This document shows, one piece after another, positions 2,625-26,255 of a stretch of 64,000 bases of DNA. The stretch lies in contig NZ_BSDE01000005.1 in assembly GCF_030268085.1 (NCBI RefSeq), positions 248,001 to 312,000 of the forward strand. The letters are read 5' to 3'. The notes below the pieces were generated by a model. It searched no databases. It saw nothing but the letters and a program-made list of their open reading frames with translations, and was not told where the DNA came from. This stretch comes from Geothrix limicola. Its GTDB lineage: Bacteria; Acidobacteriota; Holophagae; Holophagales; Holophagaceae. Position 1 is the first letter of the stretch. Every line of letters starts with the position of its first letter. Position numbers and translations under genes: made by a program.

Positions 2625-2723
2625 GGCCAAGCCTAGCGCCGTCCCCCTCGGTCCGCTATGGCATGGAAAGCCCCCACCGCAGACCACCAAGGGAGGGACA
2701 GAATCAGGAGCGGGTACAAGCGA

Positions 2724-2744
2724 AAGCCCGGCTCCGCCGGGTTT
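2724..2744 (-). terminator. Hairpin between fur and adenosine deaminase
   Basis: A 9-bp stem (2724-2732 with 2736-2744, loop TCC, one G-T pair) of the AAGCCCGGC/GCCGGGTTT type. It lies in the gap between fur and add, both read leftward, so it could end the fur transcript. It is part of a repeat-rich spacer, so its role is inferred from shape only. Confidence 0.5.
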
Positions 2745-2767
2745 CTGCGCGGGGGCCCGGGGGGAGG

Positions 2768-2826
2768 CTCCATGTCCACGAGCCTAGGGCGAGTGGGAGC
2801 AACGCAGAGCGTTGCGTCACATGGAG
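2768..2826 (+). repeat. Dispersed structured element, copy A
   Basis: A 59-nt unit closed by an 8-bp stem (2768-2775 with 2819-2826). Inside are a short hairpin (2782-2784 with 2788-2790), the invariant GAGTGGGAGC (2791-2800) and a 7-bp hairpin (2799-2805 with 2809-2815). It aligns gaplessly with copy B at 7083-7141; several stem positions differ by compensatory changes. It lies next to the 3' end of fur, with its core antisense to that gene. Confidence 0.75.
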
Positions 2827-2852
2827 GCGCGCAGCGCGGAACCCCCGGAGAA
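2827..2852 (+). repeat. 26-bp repeat, copy 1
   Basis: A 26-bp sequence beginning GCGCGCAGCGCGG and ending CCCCCGGAGAA, identical at 7019-7044. Here it follows structured element A directly and ends 3 nt before the fur stop codon; at the second site it precedes element B. The two modules therefore occur in both orders. Confidence 0.8.
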
Positions 2853-2854
2853 TA

Positions 2855-3355
2855 TTAGGTATTGAGCTGGCTCAGACGGTGGGCGAGGACCGAATCATCC
2901 GTCGTCTTGCCCTGGCAGGCCTGGCAGAGGCCGAAGATCTGATGGCTGTGGTGCATCGGCTTGAAGTTGAACTCACGGCAGATCTGCTCCTGGAGGGCCT
3001 CCAGATCGGCGCGGAAGAACTCGATGATGGCGTCGCAGTTCAGGCAGATCAGGTGATCGTGATGTTCGTCGCTGCGCACCGCTTCGTAGTGGGCGTACTG
3101 ATCGCCGAAGCTGCTCTTCCGCACCAGCCCGCACTGCACGAGCAGGTCCAGGGTGCGGTAGACCGTGGCCCGGCTGATGGCCTTGCCCTTCTGCTTGAGG
3201 GCCATGTGCAGCTGATCCGCGTCGAAGTGGTGAGGCTGGCCGAACACCTCCTCCACCAGTTCCAGCCGCTCGCCGGTCAGCTTCAGCTGACGGGAGCGCA
3301 GAAAGGTCTCGAAGCGCTGCTGTTCCTCAGGCCGTTCGATCTTCGTCTTGCGCAT
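2855..3355 (-). CDS. fur: Fur family transcriptional regulator
   Basis: 166-residue metal-responsive repressor. The N-terminal winged helix has the recognition helix SRATVYRTLDLL (61-72). The dimerisation domain carries HHDHLIC (98-104), with C104/C107 and C144/C147 as a structural zinc site, and H42/H43 with the HHDH cluster as regulatory-metal ligands. This matches true Fur more than Zur or PerR, but subfamilies cannot be separated with certainty. It is divergent from the tautomerase-like gene at 3457; the spacer holds an AT-rich imperfect palindrome that could be an autoregulatory Fur site. The translation start is followed by a basic N-terminus (MRKTK) usual for these proteins. Confidence 0.9.
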   Translation of the reverse strand: MRKTKIERPEEQQRFETFLRSRQLKLTGERLELVEEVFGQPHHFDADQLHMALKQKGKAISRATVYRTLDLLVQCGLVRKSSFGDQYAHYEAVRSDEHHDHLICLNCDAIIEFFRADLEALQEQICREFNFKPMHHSHQIFGLCQACQGKTTDDSVLAHRLSQLNT

Positions 3356-3380
3356 AGGAACCTCGAAGAGTGTGCACGAA

Positions 3381-3427
3381 TGATAATTAAATCAGAAATT
3401 TACAAATCCATATTCCAGGTGTAGTAT
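3381..3427 (+). promoter_or_regulatory. Divergent promoter region with possible Fur operator
   Basis: An AT-rich island in a GC-rich region. TGATAATTAAATCA (3381-3394) is an imperfect palindrome resembling part of a Fur box. TTTACA (3399-3404), 17 nt, then TAGTAT (3422-3427) fits a sigma-70 promoter for the rightward gene at 3457. Assignment is by eye. Confidence 0.45.
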
Positions 3428-3456
3428 AGCTCTTCCGTATACATATTGGAGTGCCC

Positions 3457-4014
3457 ATGGCCATTGTCGTTATCGAAACTCCCAGTCTTACAGCAGATCA
3501 GAAATCCAGAATCGGAGAACGTGTCATCACAGCGCTTCAGCACGAGGGCATGGCTCCTGGTTCGGTGGTTGTGCTCTTCCAGCCCGAACGCGGGGACATC
3601 TACCTGGACGGCCTGCTCGTCCAGGCCCAAATGACCGCCCCCCAGGCCGCTGCACCCACCGCCCCCGCCCCCAAGCCGCATGTGCCCATGGTCGAGCAGG
3701 AGATGGCTCCGGCCTTCAAGACCAAGGCCCGCCGCTCCAAGCCTGAACTGGAGGATATGAAGGGCCAGCTGATGCGCGCCCTGCAGGACAAGGGATCCCT
3801 CAGCAGCTTCGAGGCCCAGGTCGCCCTGGACCTCAAGGATTGCGACTGGGCCCCCGCCACGCTCCGCCGCCTGTTCACCGAACTCGAGGATGCCAAGCTC
3901 ATCGTCAAGAACGGTCAGAAGCGCGGCACCCGCTATGTCTGGAAGGGCATCGTGAACACCCCCCAGGCCTCGCCGACCGTGAAGCTCGTCAAGGCCGAGA
4001 ACGAGGAAGGCTGA
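3457..4014 (+). CDS. Tautomerase-like N-domain joined to a winged-helix C-domain, function unknown
   Basis: 185 residues from the ATG at 3457. Residues 1-60 (AIVVIETPSLTADQK...) follow the beta-alpha-beta pattern of 4-oxalocrotonate tautomerase-like proteins. A Pro/Ala-rich linker (60-80) leads to a helical winged-helix-like region (about 100-165) ending in KNGQKRGTRYVWKG. An in-frame GTG at 3451 would give Met-Pro and thus the catalytic Pro1 of tautomerases, but the only Shine-Dalgarno (TGGAG, 3447-3451) is spaced correctly for the ATG and overlaps the GTG. With the ATG start the catalytic proline is absent. It lies divergent from fur, so iron control is possible. The overall role is unknown. 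Confidence 0.6.
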   Translation: MAIVVIETPSLTADQKSRIGERVITALQHEGMAPGSVVVLFQPERGDIYLDGLLVQAQMTAPQAAAPTAPAPKPHVPMVEQEMAPAFKTKARRSKPELEDMKGQLMRALQDKGSLSSFEAQVALDLKDCDWAPATLRRLFTELEDAKLIVKNGQKRGTRYVWKGIVNTPQASPTVKLVKAENEEG

Positions 4015-4029
4015 GGATCCTCGATCCGC

Positions 4030-4062
4030 ATGAAGAAGCCCGGCATGGCCGGGCTTCTTCAT
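4030..4062 (+). terminator. Intrinsic-terminator-like hairpin after the tautomerase-like gene
   Basis: A perfect 15-bp stem (4030-4044 with 4048-4062) with a 3-nt loop, 15 bp beyond the stop codon. The right arm is followed by a 16-bp tandem duplication (4051-4066 and 4067-4082). There is no long T tract. Confidence 0.75.
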
Positions 4063-4138
4063 GTCTGGGCTTCTTCATGTCTGGGCATCGTTCCGTCCGG
4101 CTTTTCCATCGTCGTCCGCGCTCTGCCACACTTTCCCC

Positions 4139-4855
4139 ATGGACTGGTTCATCCGCGATTTCGATCACCCCGCCTACTTCACCATCTACGCAGACAAGGC
4201 GGCGGATGCGGCGCATGAAGGCCCGGCTCTGGCGACTCTGCTGGACCTGCCGCCCGGAAGCCGGGTGCTGGATCTCCCCTGCGGCTGGGGCCGCCTGCAT
4301 CCCTACCTGCGCGCCAGAGGGCTGAAGGTCGCCGGCGGAGACCTGAGCCCCCTGAACCTGGCCAAGCATCGCGCGATCCATCCCGCGCCCCTGGTGCGCC
4401 TGGATTTCCGCGCCCTGCCCTTCCGCGCGGCCTGCACGGATGCCGTCTTCTGCGCCTTCACGAGCTGGGGCTATTTCGCGACCGAGGCCGAGAACCTGCG
4501 CCAGCTGACGGAATTCGCCCGGGTGATCCGCCCCGGCGGCGTGCTGCTGCTCGATCTCGCGGGCCGCACCTTCCTTCAGTCCGCGATGGTCGGCGTGGAG
4601 GGCGAGTGGATGGAGTTCCCGGAAGAGGGCTACCAGGAACGCGCCATGTGGAATCCCGACGGACGGCGGATCCTCACCGAGCGCGTCTGCCAGGGCGAAG
4701 CCTTCTGCCACGACATCTGGATCCCCACCGATGCCGAAGTGCGCGCGTGCCTCGATCAGGCCGGGTTCGACGTGGCCCAGGCCTACGGTGGGCTGGACGG
4801 GCGTCCCTGGGATGAACGCGAAGAGCGGTGGATCTACCGGTGCATCAGGCGGTGA
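4139..4855 (+). CDS. Class I SAM-dependent methyltransferase
   Basis: 238 residues from the ATG at 4139. The Rossmann SAM motif VLDLPCGWGRL lies at 43-53, the acidic ribose-binding residue in GGDLS (66-70), and the post-motif strand VIRPGGVLLLDLAG follows at about 125-138. The pattern is of the Methyltransf_11/25 kind acting on small molecules or lipids; the substrate is not predictable. An upstream ATG at 4061 would place the start inside the terminator region and is rejected. The 3' end overlaps the convergent MFS gene by 11 bp. Confidence 0.8.
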   Translation: MDWFIRDFDHPAYFTIYADKAADAAHEGPALATLLDLPPGSRVLDLPCGWGRLHPYLRARGLKVAGGDLSPLNLAKHRAIHPAPLVRLDFRALPFRAACTDAVFCAFTSWGYFATEAENLRQLTEFARVIRPGGVLLLDLAGRTFLQSAMVGVEGEWMEFPEEGYQERAMWNPDGRRILTERVCQGEAFCHDIWIPTDAEVRACLDQAGFDVAQAYGGLDGRPWDEREERWIYRCIRR

Positions 4856-6014
4856 ATCCCCGCGCCGCGAACAGGTAACCGCCGAAGACCAGGCCACACA
4901 ACCCCAGAGCCACCGGCAGACCCAGGCCCTGCACCAGGAAGCCTCCTACGAGGGGCCCGATCATCAGGCCCACGGAATAGGCTAGGTTGAGGATGGAAAA
5001 GGCCGACGCGAAACTCTGGCTGCCCTGGCGTTCCACCTGGTCCGCCACCGCAGGGCTGCAGGGGCTCATGATGAAGCTCGCCGTGCTGCCCAGGCCCATC
5101 ATCGCCAGCACCACCCACCAGGGCCCCGGCAACAGCGCCGGCAGGGGCAGCAGCACCAGGGCCAACACCAGGCCCATGCGCAGCACCTTCACGCGGCCGA
5201 TGCGGTCCGACAGCCGGCCCATGAGTGGCGAGGTGAATGTGTGCGCCAGGGCCGAGGCCGCGAAGCACCATCCAATCTGGGACGCGTTGAGCCCAAGCCG
5301 CCCGTCCATGTCCAGCGGCAGGGTGGATTCGAGCAGCGCCCAGAGCCCCGATCCCAGGGCCATGGCGCCTGCAAAGAGACGAATGATGGGATTGGACAGT
5401 AGTTGTCGAAAGGGCAGGCGAGGCCCACGCTCCGCTTCCACCTCCGGCAGCAGGAAGGCCCGGCCCAAGGCATCGAGCCCCACCAGACCCGCGCCGAAGA
5501 GGAAGGGCGCCGAGGGCCCGGCATGCAGGTCGAGAAATCCCGATAACGGCGGGCCGATGAGCACGCCCAGGTTGGCGGCGGCGAAGGCCGTGCCCATGGC
5601 CTTCCCCCGAGATTCCGAAGGGAAGTGGTCCGCCAGCAGGGCCATGCCCGGTAGCCAGGTGGCCGCGCCGGCAATGCCCTGGAAGAACCGGGCCAGCACG
5701 AGCAGCCAATACTGCTTCGAGACCGCGAACACGAGGGTCGTGAGGGCCAGGCCCGCCAAACCCCAAAGCATGGGGGCCCGGCGCCCGAACCGGTCCGTGA
5801 GGATCGCCACGGGGAAGGTCGCCAGCAGCAGCGCGACGGCGTAGCTTCCGAAGAGGATGCCCACCTTCACGGGATTCAGGCCCAGCTCCCGCGCGTACCG
5901 CGGCAGCAGCGGCACGAGCAGGTAGTAGAGGAGCATGTCCACGTGGAAGGCGAGGGCCGTCACGAGCAGGGCGGCGGTCTGGGGCGAAGGGCGGCGCATG
6001 CTCCATGGAACCAC
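4845..6014 (-). CDS. MFS transporter (drug/metabolite efflux type)
   Basis: 389 residues with about twelve hydrophobic segments filling the protein. The MFS motif A between TM2 and TM3 is clear as LTDRFGRR (72-79), and a second half-copy, MGRLSDRIGR, lies in the loop between TM8 and TM9, as expected from the internal duplication of the fold. The length fits DHA1-type proton antiporters, but the substrate is unknown. Start: GTG at 6014, or ATG at 5999 after five more residues; neither has a strong ribosome site. It converges on the methyltransferase gene, with overlapping 3' ends. Confidence 0.85.
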   Translation of the reverse strand: MVPWSMRRPSPQTAALLVTALAFHVDMLLYYLLVPLLPRYARELGLNPVKVGILFGSYAVALLLATFPVAILTDRFGRRAPMLWGLAGLALTTLVFAVSKQYWLLVLARFFQGIAGAATWLPGMALLADHFPSESRGKAMGTAFAAANLGVLIGPPLSGFLDLHAGPSAPFLFGAGLVGLDALGRAFLLPEVEAERGPRLPFRQLLSNPIIRLFAGAMALGSGLWALLESTLPLDMDGRLGLNASQIGWCFAASALAHTFTSPLMGRLSDRIGRVKVLRMGLVLALVLLPLPALLPGPWWVVLAMMGLGSTASFIMSPCSPAVADQVERQGSQSFASAFSILNLAYSVGLMIGPLVGGFLVQGLGLPVALGLCGLVFGGYLFAARGFTA

Positions 6015-6050
6015 GTGTCGGAACCATGCGCCGCCTGTGGATTCATCGAT

Positions 6051-6809
6051 TCATCCGCGGGCCATCTCCACCTTGGGATAGGCCGCCCGGAAGCCGCAGC
6101 ATTCGTAGGAGCGCTGACTGGCCGTTCCCGGAGCCGTGGAGGCGCAGGCGATCTCGGCGCCGCGTGACCGGGCCAGGCCGAGCCGCGCCCGGATGAGCGC
6201 CTGCTGGAGCCCCCTGCCCCGAAATCGCGGCAGCACGCTCGTACCCGAAAGCAGGGCGATACCGTCCACTAATCCCAACATGCCCCCACCGGCGGGCTGC
6301 CCCTCCATGAAGACGAGGAAGCCCCATGCATCTTCCACCTGGAGGGAGGTCCGGAACGGCGGCTCCAGATCCTGCCAGTCATCGCGTTCGAGGAACCCAG
6401 CGCAGACAATCCTGTTGTACAGCTCCGCTTCTCCGGCCCCTGCGATCCGGATCTCCGGAGAAAGGCCGGTGGCGTCCTGATCCGTGAGGGCGCGAGTCCA
6501 GAGCTGCTGGAACTGATGCAGCCGGTAGCCACGTTGCGCCAACAGCGACCACCACCCTGGATCGGCGCCAGGGCTCAGTTCCAGCACCGTGGGGACGCCG
6601 AGGAAGGCTTCGACGGCGACGAGCTCGGCCTCGTCCACGGGCTCGATAAGTCCCAGGGCCTGATTGAGCGGGTGGGCCTCGCCCCGGAAGTGCGCGAAAC
6701 CGCCGCCCACGGGTAGGCTGCGGCCTCCCGCGGCCTGATTGAATCGTTCGTTCTGCAACGCCTGGGCCCGCTCAAGGCGGCGCGCCAGGGCCTGGATGTC
6801 CTGCGCCAT
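6051..6809 (-). CDS. GNAT family N-acetyltransferase
   Basis: 252 residues from the ATG at 6809, preceded by GGAG at good spacing; an upstream in-frame start at 6923 adds 38 non-conserved residues. The C-terminal half has the GNAT fold: a strand ending in SGTSVLPRFRGRGL with the R/Q-x-x-G-x-G/A acetyl-CoA loop (RGRGLQQAL), followed by SYECCGFRAAYP, the usual alpha4-beta7 end. The N-terminal half resembles a second, degenerate GNAT-like domain. The acceptor substrate is unknown. Confidence 0.8.
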   Translation of the reverse strand: MAQDIQALARRLERAQALQNERFNQAAGGRSLPVGGGFAHFRGEAHPLNQALGLIEPVDEAELVAVEAFLGVPTVLELSPGADPGWWSLLAQRGYRLHQFQQLWTRALTDQDATGLSPEIRIAGAGEAELYNRIVCAGFLERDDWQDLEPPFRTSLQVEDAWGFLVFMEGQPAGGGMLGLVDGIALLSGTSVLPRFRGRGLQQALIRARLGLARSRGAEIACASTAPGTASQRSYECCGFRAAYPKVEMARG

Positions 6810-7018
6810 GGTGGCTCCGAAGTGTGTGGTGCATTGGCCTGCCTGGCGGATCGCCAGGATCTCTAACCGCGCGCCCATCCGGACGCGCCCATCCCCGCGC
6901 CAAGTCCAGGCGCAAGACAGCAAGGTTGGGTCAGAGACGTCAGAGGCCTACTCGGAGAACGGATCCCAGCCTAACCGAAGACAGCGAGGTGGAACAGCAA
7001 GCGGAAGCCCGGGGGTAT
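6810..7018. other. Non-coding spacer, first part
   Basis: Between the GNAT start and the repeats near rnpB. I see no credible open reading frame here; short frames are GC-rich by-products. The stretch may hold the GNAT promoter, but no clear -10/-35 pair is visible. Confidence 0.5.
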
Positions 7019-7044
7019 GCGCGCAGCGCGGAACCCCCGGAGAA
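7019..7044 (+). repeat. 26-bp repeat, copy 2
   Basis: Identical over 26 bp to 2827-2852. Here CCGGGGG just upstream can pair with the CCCCCGG inside the repeat, making a hairpin. Confidence 0.8.
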
Positions 7045-7049
7045 CATAA

Positions 7050-7078
7050 GCGCGGCCCCTTCGCGGGGGCCGTGGTGG
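7050..7078. repeat. Duplicate of the rnpB 3' hairpin
   Basis: 29 bp matching 7168-7196 at 27 positions. Each holds a GGCCCC/GGGGCC stem and ends GTGGTGG. The copy at 7168 overlaps the end of rnpB; this one stands 118 bp away, beyond element B. Confidence 0.75.
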
Positions 7079-7082
7079 GAGG

Positions 7083-7141
7083 CTCCATCTCCGCGCGCCG
7101 AAGGCGAGTGGGAGCCGTGCACCGCACGGCGATAGATGGAG
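7083..7141 (+). repeat. Dispersed structured element, copy B
   Basis: Same 59-nt architecture as copy A: closing stem 7083-7090 with 7134-7141, inner hairpin 7096-7099 with 7103-7106, invariant GAGTGGGAGC (7106-7115), and 7-bp hairpin 7114-7120 with 7124-7130. Three base pairs in the last hairpin and one in the closing stem differ from copy A with pairing kept. It lies just past the 3' end of rnpB. Confidence 0.75.
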
Positions 7142-7167
7142 GGTAAGCCGGCCCGGCTCCGAACCCA

Positions 7168-7196
7168 GCGCGGCCCCCTTGCGGGGGCCGTGGTGG
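7168..7196 (-). terminator. Hairpin at the 3' end of rnpB
   Basis: A strong GC stem (GGCCCCC/GGGGGCC) immediately beyond the P1 helix of rnpB, in the position of a terminator, though without a T tract. A near copy is at 7050-7078. Confidence 0.5.
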
Positions 7197-7560
7197 ATCG
7201 GTAAGCCGGGTTCTGTCGTGGAGCGTCATTCCTCTGGGATGGATGTCGCCACCCACCTCGTGCGACCTACCCGCCGACTCGGTCGGGTCAACCCTCGCCG
7301 CTTGCGCGGTGCGTCGGCCTATTTGGTCTTGCTCCCTGGGGGGTTTGCCGTGCCCGTCCTGTTGCCAGTCCGGCGGTGGGCTCTTACCCCACCGTTTCGC
7401 CCTTACCTGATCCGGTCGTGTTTCCACGGGCCGGCCATCGGCGGTTTGTTTTCTGTTGCACTTTCCGTCGGGTCACCCCGCCCTGGTGTTACCAGGCCCA
7501 GCACCCTGTGGAGCCCGGACTTTCCTCTGCCCTCGCGGACAGCGACGCCCTGATCCACAA
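7193..7560 (-). ncRNA. rnpB: RNase P RNA, bacterial type A
   Basis: Catalytic RNA that removes 5' leaders from pre-tRNAs. On the minus strand the diagnostic P4 segment GAGGAAAGTCCGGGCTCC is at 7527-7510, and the universal 3' segment ACAGAACCCGGCTTA reads across about 7218-7203. The two ends pair as helix P1: GTGGATC (7558-7552) with GATCCAC (7199-7193). The length of roughly 370 nt fits type A RNase P RNA. Exact ends may extend a few nucleotides. It sits directly downstream of exbD. No protein-coding frame in this stretch should be believed. Confidence 0.93.
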
Positions 7561-7580
7561 GGGCCAAGCGTAGCACGGTC

Positions 7581-25369: not shown

Positions 25370-26101
25370 ATGTCAGGCCACAATAAATGGTCCACCATCA
25401 AGCACAAGAAGGGCGCCGCGGATGCCAAGCGGGGCAAGCTCTTCACCAAGATCCTGAAGGAAATCACCGTGGCGGCCCGCCTGGGTGGCGGCGACATCGG
25501 CAGCAACCCCCGCCTCCGCCTGGCCGTGGATCAGGCCAAGGGCAGCAACATGCCCAAGGACAACTGGGAACGTGCCATCAAGAAGGGCACCGGCGAACTC
25601 GAGGGCGTGACCTATGAGGAAGTCGTCTACGAGGGCTACGGCCCCGGCGGCGTCGCCATCCTCATCGAGGCCATGACCGACAACAAGAACCGCACCACGC
25701 CCGAGGTCCGCAGCTACTTCGCCAAGTTCGGCGGCGACCTCGGCGCCCAGGGCTCCGTGGCCTACCTGTTCAGCAAGCAGGGCCAGATTGTGGTGGAACC
25801 CGAGGTCTCCGAAGACAAGATCATGGAAGTGGCCCTGGAAGCCGGCGCCGACGACGTGATCAACGAGGGCGAAGCCTGGGTCATCAAGACCAGCCCCGAG
25901 GCCTACCAGGCCGTGAAGGATGCCGTGGACGCCGCCAAGCTCCCCGTCCTCGAAGCCAAGCTCATCATGGACCCCAGCACCAGCACCGCCCTCGAAGGCA
26001 GCAAGCTCACCAGCTTCCTCAAGCTCGTGGATCTGCTCGAGGACAACGACGACGTGCAGAACGTGTGGCACAACGGCGACTACGAGGAACCCGAAGACTG
26101 A
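25370..26101 (+). CDS. yebC: YebC/PmpR family protein
   Basis: 243 residues, full length for the family. The N-terminal three-helix hallmark [22 protein letters not shown] is intact, and the central and C-terminal domains have [17 protein letters not shown] and [17 protein letters not shown]. YebC proteins are known as regulators of quorum sensing or as translation factors that ease stalling at poly-proline (TACO1 group). The last 33 coding bases together with the stop are repeated 148 bp downstream (26067-26107 and 26215-26255). Confidence 0.9.
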
Positions 26102-26107
26102 GGTCCC
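26067..26107 (+). repeat. Direct repeat, copy 1 (end of yebC)
   Basis: A 41-bp sequence covering the last codons, the TGA and six bases beyond. It is identical to 26215-26255. Confidence 0.92.
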
Positions 26108-26144
26108 GTGCCACACGCCCTCCGGCCGCACGCGTTTCTGGCTG

Positions 26145-26209
26145 CCCCCGATCGCACGCCGCACTGCGGCGCGCTCCCACTCCCCGCTGCGCGGGCTCGC
26201 GGAGGGGGG
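26145..26209 (-). repeat. Dispersed structured element, copy C (diverged)
   Basis: On the minus strand the core GAGTGGGAGC is at 26182-26173. Flanking it are an inner hairpin (26183-26187 with 26191-26195) and a longer hairpin (26154-26162 with 26166-26174, loop ACT, one wobble pair). The closing stem is only CCCCC (26145-26149) with GGGGG (26204-26208). Sequence differs from A and B but the layout is the same. It lies between the two 41-bp repeats after yebC. Confidence 0.6.
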
Positions 26210-26214
26210 CCCCC

Positions 26215-26255
26215 GGCACAACGGCGACTACGAGGAACCCGAAGACTGAGGTCCC
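26215..26255 (+). repeat. Direct repeat, copy 2 (duplicated yebC end)
   Basis: Exact copy of 26067-26107, complete with the TGA. It has no start or reading frame of its own, and its presence implies a duplication tied to element C. Confidence 0.92.

Follow-up and report, generated by a model that had tools for sequence, protein, structure and literature searches.

Two dispersed 59-nt stretches with complementary arms in the window, i.e., the whole 64,000-nt stretch of Geothrix limicola DNA that was analysed, raise the question of whether they represent a structured RNA or mobile DNA. The preliminary description had kept both readings. Our results bear out the mobile element of the REP/MITE kind, as indicated by filled and empty sites, in-frame inserts, inverted pairs and arrays, and speak against a structured RNA as the driver, since there was no Rfam match, A-C outnumbered G-U among the imperfect pairs, and the module was optional at orthologous sites. 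Most probably, both stretches belong to a palindromic, non-autonomous mobile repeat some 60 bp long that occurs in Geothrix and in other genera of the family.

Two copies of a module predicted to form a three-way junction

The gap-free match between 2768-2826 and 7083-7141 was reproduced, with 43/59 identical positions. As a control, random 59-mers from the window were examined, and 2/398 of them had a second match that was equally good, so that the alignment alone is only suggestive. The base-pair changes reported earlier proved exact, both in the 7-bp hairpin (GCAACGC/GCGTTGC vs. GCCGTGC/GCACGGC) and in the closing stem (ATGT/ACAT vs. ATCT/AGAT). These two stems (P2 and P1, respectively) had been recognised correctly, but a third one (P3, CCAC..GTGG with an inner GCC..GGC) had been missed, and the element GAGTGGGAGC, taken for a loop core, is in fact one side of this third stem together with the junction and varies in other copies. 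Single-strand DNA folding gave a three-way junction for both copies and both strands (P1 of 8 bp, P2 of 7 bp, P3 of 4+3 bp), more stable than dinucleotide shuffles with z-scores of −5.3 (+ strand) and −3.9 (− strand) for copy 1, and −4.4 (+) and −3.2 (−) for copy 2. The single strand is thus predicted to fold into a junction of P1, P2 and P3, where pairing is kept as the stem sequences change.

The features of the window are collected in Table 1. The scores refer to a covariance model (R1) built from a sequence-only alignment of 37 copies; it matched copy 1 on the − strand. A third, divergent copy, matched on the + strand and similar to two other copies in the same genome (L196, L198), may be the "copy C" of the preliminary description.

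Table 1. Positions of the module copies and adjoining features in the window
Feature	Position	Strand	Evidence or remark
Terminator cassette hosting copy 1	2722-2853	−	directly after the fur stop; orthologous fur cassettes with and without module; order: UUCUCCGGGGGUUCCGCGCUGCGCG (2828-2853), module, CCCCGGGCCCCCGCGC (2747-2762), terminator-like hairpin (2722-2746)
Copy 1, left GGAGG direct repeat (insertion target)	2763-2767	+	sequence, family conservation
Copy 1, three-way-junction module	2768-2826	+	R1 82.2 bits; fold z −5.3; BLAST relatives in own genome
Copy 1, P1	2768-2775/2819-2826	+	
Copy 1, P3	2776-2779/2793-2796; inner 2782-2784/2788-2790	+	
Copy 1, P2	2799-2805/2809-2815	+	
Copy 1, right GGAGG direct repeat	2823-2827	+	overlaps P1 end; sequence, family conservation
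Fur-family regulator gene, cassette at its 3′ end	2855-3355	−	Pfam PF01475, E 5e-31
Cassette core, simple form without module, adjoining copy 2	7020-7045	−	matched by the 26-nt flank in BLAST (G000:C5:255019-255044)
Copy 2, left GGAGG direct repeat	7078-7082	+	sequence, family conservation
Copy 2 of the module	7083-7141	+	R1 73.3 bits; fold z −4.4
Copy 2, P1	7083-7090/7134-7141	+	
Copy 2, P2	7114-7120/7124-7130	+	P3 lies between P1 and P2
Copy 2, right GGAGG direct repeat	7138-7142	+	sequence, family conservation
RNase P RNA gene, class A	7186-7561	−	Rfam RF00010, 266.8 bits; copy 2 just beyond its 3′ end
41-nt exact direct duplication, 3′ end of YebC-like gene	26067-26255	+	26067-26107 and 26215-26255, flanking copy 3
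Copy 3, divergent subfamily, CCCC/GGGG closing stem	26145-26208	−	R1 22.7 bits, E 1e-3 in window

The module belongs to a family restricted mainly to Geothrix and its relatives

Further copies, whose absence would have refuted the earlier proposal, were readily found: about 8 good ones in the own genome by BLAST and 20 with the covariance model, and the 26-nt flank gave some 35 own-genome copies by BLAST. Matches were obtained by BLAST in 19/19 Geothrix genomes and in 0/12 genomes from other families of the class, and the relatives named in the Fur search were Geothrix and Holophagaceae. With R1, the unit was detected in 47/47 Geothrix genomes (2 to 37 copies each) and in 7/11 genera of the family; the phylum sample outside the family yielded two weak single hits only. 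A search of a plasmid collection gave no match to the element, and the cassette core described below had no viral match. Viral carriage was considered as well: 20 viral contigs bore the 18-letter core pattern, none of them matched the full model, and we attribute the pattern to chance. A literature search on Geothrix repeats returned nothing relevant. We class the element as a new family of small palindromic mobile repeats, a kind already known.

Most copies reside downstream of genes, often in terminator cassettes

About 160 of the 171 distinct copies are intergenic, mostly past the 3′ end of a gene, and of the 141 intergenic copies for which both neighbours were called, 111 come after the 3′ end of a gene in the same reading direction (genes were called with a simple codon-usage caller, hence the positions are approximate). 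In one class of copies, including copy 1, the module is part of a cassette with the order stop codon, UCCGGGGG..GCGCUGCGCGC, module, CCCCCGGACCCCCGCGC, and terminator-like hairpin. The cassette copies mostly lie 26-65 nt, often exactly 28 nt, past the same-strand upstream stop and ahead of the terminator-like hairpin. Module-free cassettes bear ACA or a similar sequence at the module joint. In related species, the fur 3′ end may have no cassette, a bare cassette, a cassette with another hairpin, with the module, or with both; likewise, both bare and module-filled cassettes were found at rpmA 3′ ends. Thus, the module may occupy a site in one species and be missing from it in a related one. Cassette copies are always found at the same joint, so recombination of the cassette, and not insertion of the module itself, may account for the spread of many of them. 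Where the fur stop is followed by no cassette (L106, L107, L113, L118, L121-L124), another repeat family (TAGCTGTCGGCTGTCAGCTGATAGCTG...) often comes next. In the own genome, whole cassettes were also seen in tandem, with 3-4 units and a period of about 80-93 nt (L020/L025/L026 and L018/L022).

Outside the cassettes, the module occurs in both orientations, and in general it is met as single units, inverted pairs and tandem arrays. All 25 inverted pairs have one and the same arrangement, with 12-20-nt spacers. The 3′ flank of the RNase P RNA gene carries a single unit in the window and an inverted module pair in another genus (L179). Tandem modules at L252 (G165) and L180 (G009) are arranged head to tail, one base apart, with a single GAGG common to adjoining units.

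Some copies form inverted pairs within giant intergenic palindromes of about 375 nt. These hyperstructured palindromes (L181-L186, L174, L175) have ends GAGTGCCTAACAAAACCCC...GGGGTTTTGTTAGGCACTC that differ between copies and stay complementary. Integron attC sites were considered for giant palindromes ending in GAGTGCCTAAC...GTTAGGCACTC and dropped, as the ends of other copies differ yet are equally complementary. Two near-identical giant palindromes of one genome (L177 and L178, G031) differ by the clean insertion of another hairpin (CCCCGCCCACGCAGGCGTGGGCGGGGATCTAAGG), and hairpins of this kind with a GGATCTA tail are present in many cassettes, so there is probably a second mobile hairpin family.

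Filled and empty sites reveal insertion at GGAGG

In-frame units were found within three genes assigned by Pfam: recG, the gene of a GH20 hexosaminidase (own genome) and lipA (G165, another genus). The inserts of 60, 66 and 63 nt have identical strand and frame and encode a peptide GGSIS...IDGG. In the GH20 enzyme (G000:C1, L191), the insert adds 22 residues. Sequenced empty sites are available for recG and GH20, two of the only three intragenic targets documented. The GH20 site is filled in the own genome and empty in G032 and G041; the empty site reads GGAAGGAGGCCTGG, and the filled one reads GGAAGGAGGC + 60 nt + GGAGGCCTGG. The recG gene gave an uninterrupted match in 43 genomes, 30 of which were read at the nucleotide level (empty site GATGAAGGCAAGG), and is filled in 3 genomes (GATGGAGGC ... 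GATGGAGGCAAGG), with four tandem units in G009 and one unit each in G011 and G040. The empty GH20 site has one copy of GGAGG, and the empty recG site has GAAGG. GGAGG stands on both sides of 94/135 non-cassette copies and 24/32 cassette copies, and in all the copies collected conservation stops at GGAGG on both sides. The element thus inserts at GGAGG(C), and GGAGG is then found on both its sides.

The recG inserts of two species, G011 and G040, are identical over 66 nt, whereas the adjoining 99 nt match at only 71 and 75 positions (about 71-76%). The recG tree requires 3 changes, and a single origin appeared in no bootstrap tree. Since one old gain followed by losses would not keep the insert identical, the recG inserts were acquired recently and separately at one site. 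The G040 recG (L154) also bears a second in-frame insertion near the N-terminus (GFGLRPSPSWGAGGGRRATEG), possibly another palindromic element.

Stem covariation is strong, but it does not by itself indicate an RNA

On the structure of copy 1, 94% of the cells in the 37-copy alignment pair. Changes on both sides were found in 15/22 pairs, including 7/7 pairs of P2 in this sequence-only alignment, and the number of cells with both-side changes reached 114 vs. 33 in shuffles and 9-22 in slid controls; nearly all 37 copies had been chosen partly by 7/8 P1 pairs, which biases the P1 counts to pairing and leaves P2 and P3 unselected. A second set, comprising 115 distinct copies, gave the same picture (467 vs. 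148 both-side cells), with the reservation that these copies were aligned to the model and hence biased to the structure by construction. One-sided pair changes are rare as compared to two-sided ones. The pair type is constant at pairs 1-4 of P1 in 94-99% of 163 copies, and pairs 5-7 covary. The preliminary description took compensatory changes as the mark of a selected structure. Taken alone, they do not demonstrate selection on an RNA, as such changes are also found in palindromic elements made of DNA. A dispersed repeat may covary strongly in its stems without being a functional RNA.

That the module might nevertheless serve as a structured RNA of 3′ untranslated regions, selected as such, which would fold in the mRNA after the stop codon and ahead of the terminator to shield the transcript end, aid termination or bind a protein, is suggested by its place in the cassettes shortly after same-strand stops, by the prevalence of intergenic copies behind codirectional genes and by the covariation itself. 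We consider this improbable. On the strand transcribed with the cassette, imperfect pairs were A-C in 102 cases vs. G-U in 37 (58 vs. 21 rows), i.e., the opposite of the trace expected from RNA selection, with an excess that fades once near copies are merged. Moreover, orthologous 3′ ends may carry the module or do without it, and the module takes both orientations outside the cassettes and is present within coding sequences. Neither copy matched Rfam at the gathering threshold, and at E 1 the region 2640-7200 gave nothing beyond one sub-threshold RT-15 hit, which lies elsewhere. As A-C on one strand equals G-T on the other, it is the + strand (GGAGG-CTCC, on which the in-frame inserts are read as well) that is favoured, if either.

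Discussion

The reading preferred here, a mobile DNA repeat, allows us to outline how the module might move. The substrate would be a folded single strand carrying GGAGG-CTCC, whose CTCC, paired in the element to the right-end GGAG, may find the target in the same way, by pairing with its GGAG. Such recognition would explain why only the four outermost pairs of P1, which equal the target GGAG, are nearly fixed. The mobilising enzyme may be encoded elsewhere, or its part may be played by the host replication/repair machinery. Most copies are located after stop codons, either because they are tolerated there or because they are carried in the repeated terminator cassettes. The Y1 HUH transposase (PF01797, Y1_Tnp) was detected in 5/41 genomes and in none of the other 36/41, and Y2 (IS91-like) enzymes are patchy (10/47 genomes); with so few genomes carrying them, neither a RAYT/TnpA nor a Y2 transposase accounts for the element. 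The sole Y1 trace in the own genome is a 35-residue remnant of an IS200-type TnpA in a 77-aa frame (L200, G000:C9:2602-2706). The most far-reaching version, where a strand folded into the three-way junction is transposed without a resident HUH transposase by an unrecognised enzyme, is targeted by CTCC-GGAG Watson-Crick pairing and adds in-frame peptides to host proteins, appears doubtful to us.

The main alternative for the mechanism is template switching at GGAGG; the GGAGG repeats fit a microhomology-driven switch equally well. In its full form, it dispenses with dedicated transposition: template switching and slippage would proceed at stalled forks or breaks, driven by GGAGG microhomology, homologous recombination of cassettes would swap modules, and quasipalindrome correction would keep the arms complementary. 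The tandem arrays, the 41-nt duplication around copy 3, the module swaps at fur and rpmA, the rarity of one-sided against two-sided pair changes and the lack of an HUH enzyme common to all genomes agree with this explanation, as do the GGAGG repeats at both ends. The strict unit boundaries, the recurrence of identical inserts at one recG site in three lineages and the uniform arrangement of inverted pairs suggest instead a specific recognition step, and we regard host processes alone as rather unlikely, if less so than the other alternatives. A REP/REPIN family moved by the RAYT (TnpA-REP) tyrosine transposase is highly improbable. Such a family would account for dispersed, intergenic copies at 3′ ends, for inverted doublets and for copies in repair genes, as in REPs (PMC3733652, PMC3116915). 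However, no GTAG or CGTC tag is present at an unpaired end, the fold is a three-way junction rather than one hairpin, and Y1_Tnp is absent in 36/41 genomes of a genus where every genome has the repeat. Judging from the distribution of PF01797 matches, a RAYT-mobilised REP was rejected for most genomes.

For small palindromic mobile repeats such as Rickettsia palindromic elements (RPEs) and CGTC-type REPs, no mover is known. The Geothrix family lives in culturable, free-living hosts, its filled and empty sites are clear, and both its target and its boundary are defined; it has entered recG recently and more than once and is inserted in frame in the core of an enzyme. This makes both the mover and the effect on the protein testable.

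Comparison with known systems

The systems nearest in kind to the module are REPs/REPINs and RPEs. REPs, palindromes of 20-40 bp with a GTAG or CGTC tag, lie for the most part behind genes, often as inverted dimers and at times within repair genes, and their CGTC class has no known transposase (PMC3733652); REPINs are inverted REP doublets (PMC3116915). The Geothrix module resembles both in being small, dispersed and mostly downstream of genes, in its compensatory stem changes, in its repair-gene copies (PMC3733652, PMC3116915) and in the inverted doublets, represented here by the 25 pairs. It differs in having a multi-arm fold of about 59 nt, GGAGG direct repeats, and neither a GTAG/CGTC tag nor a RAYT: the ends are paired (CTCC/GGAG), and the junction trinucleotide beside P2 is variable (GAC, ATC and others). 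RPEs, for which a length of about 150 bp is given, insert in frame into unrelated Rickettsia genes and bring along a conserved peptide (PMC10969869). The module is likewise palindromic and preserves the frame in unrelated genes (recG, GH20, lipA); unlike RPEs, with which it is compared here by description, it is about 60 bp long, has a three-way junction, is flanked by GGAGG and belongs to free-living Acidobacteriota.

Elements of the IS200/IS605 group move as a folded single strand, keep a short target beside the element and rely on guide pairing between element and target. By analogy, the module would share with them the folded strand, the retained target and the target pairing, a role that we infer here for CTCC; in contrast, most Geothrix genomes lack a TnpA gene, and GGAGG is found at both module ends. 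With MITEs, the module has in common its short, non-coding nature, terminal inverted repeats (the complementary P1 arms) and a target-site duplication in the form of short flanking direct repeats (GGAGG on both sides), but its ends belong to a junction fold, and an autonomous partner was not found among the Y1 and Y2 HUH transposases sought. Taken together, the comparison places the Geothrix module outside the definition of a REP and shows it to work like REPs, REPINs and RPEs.
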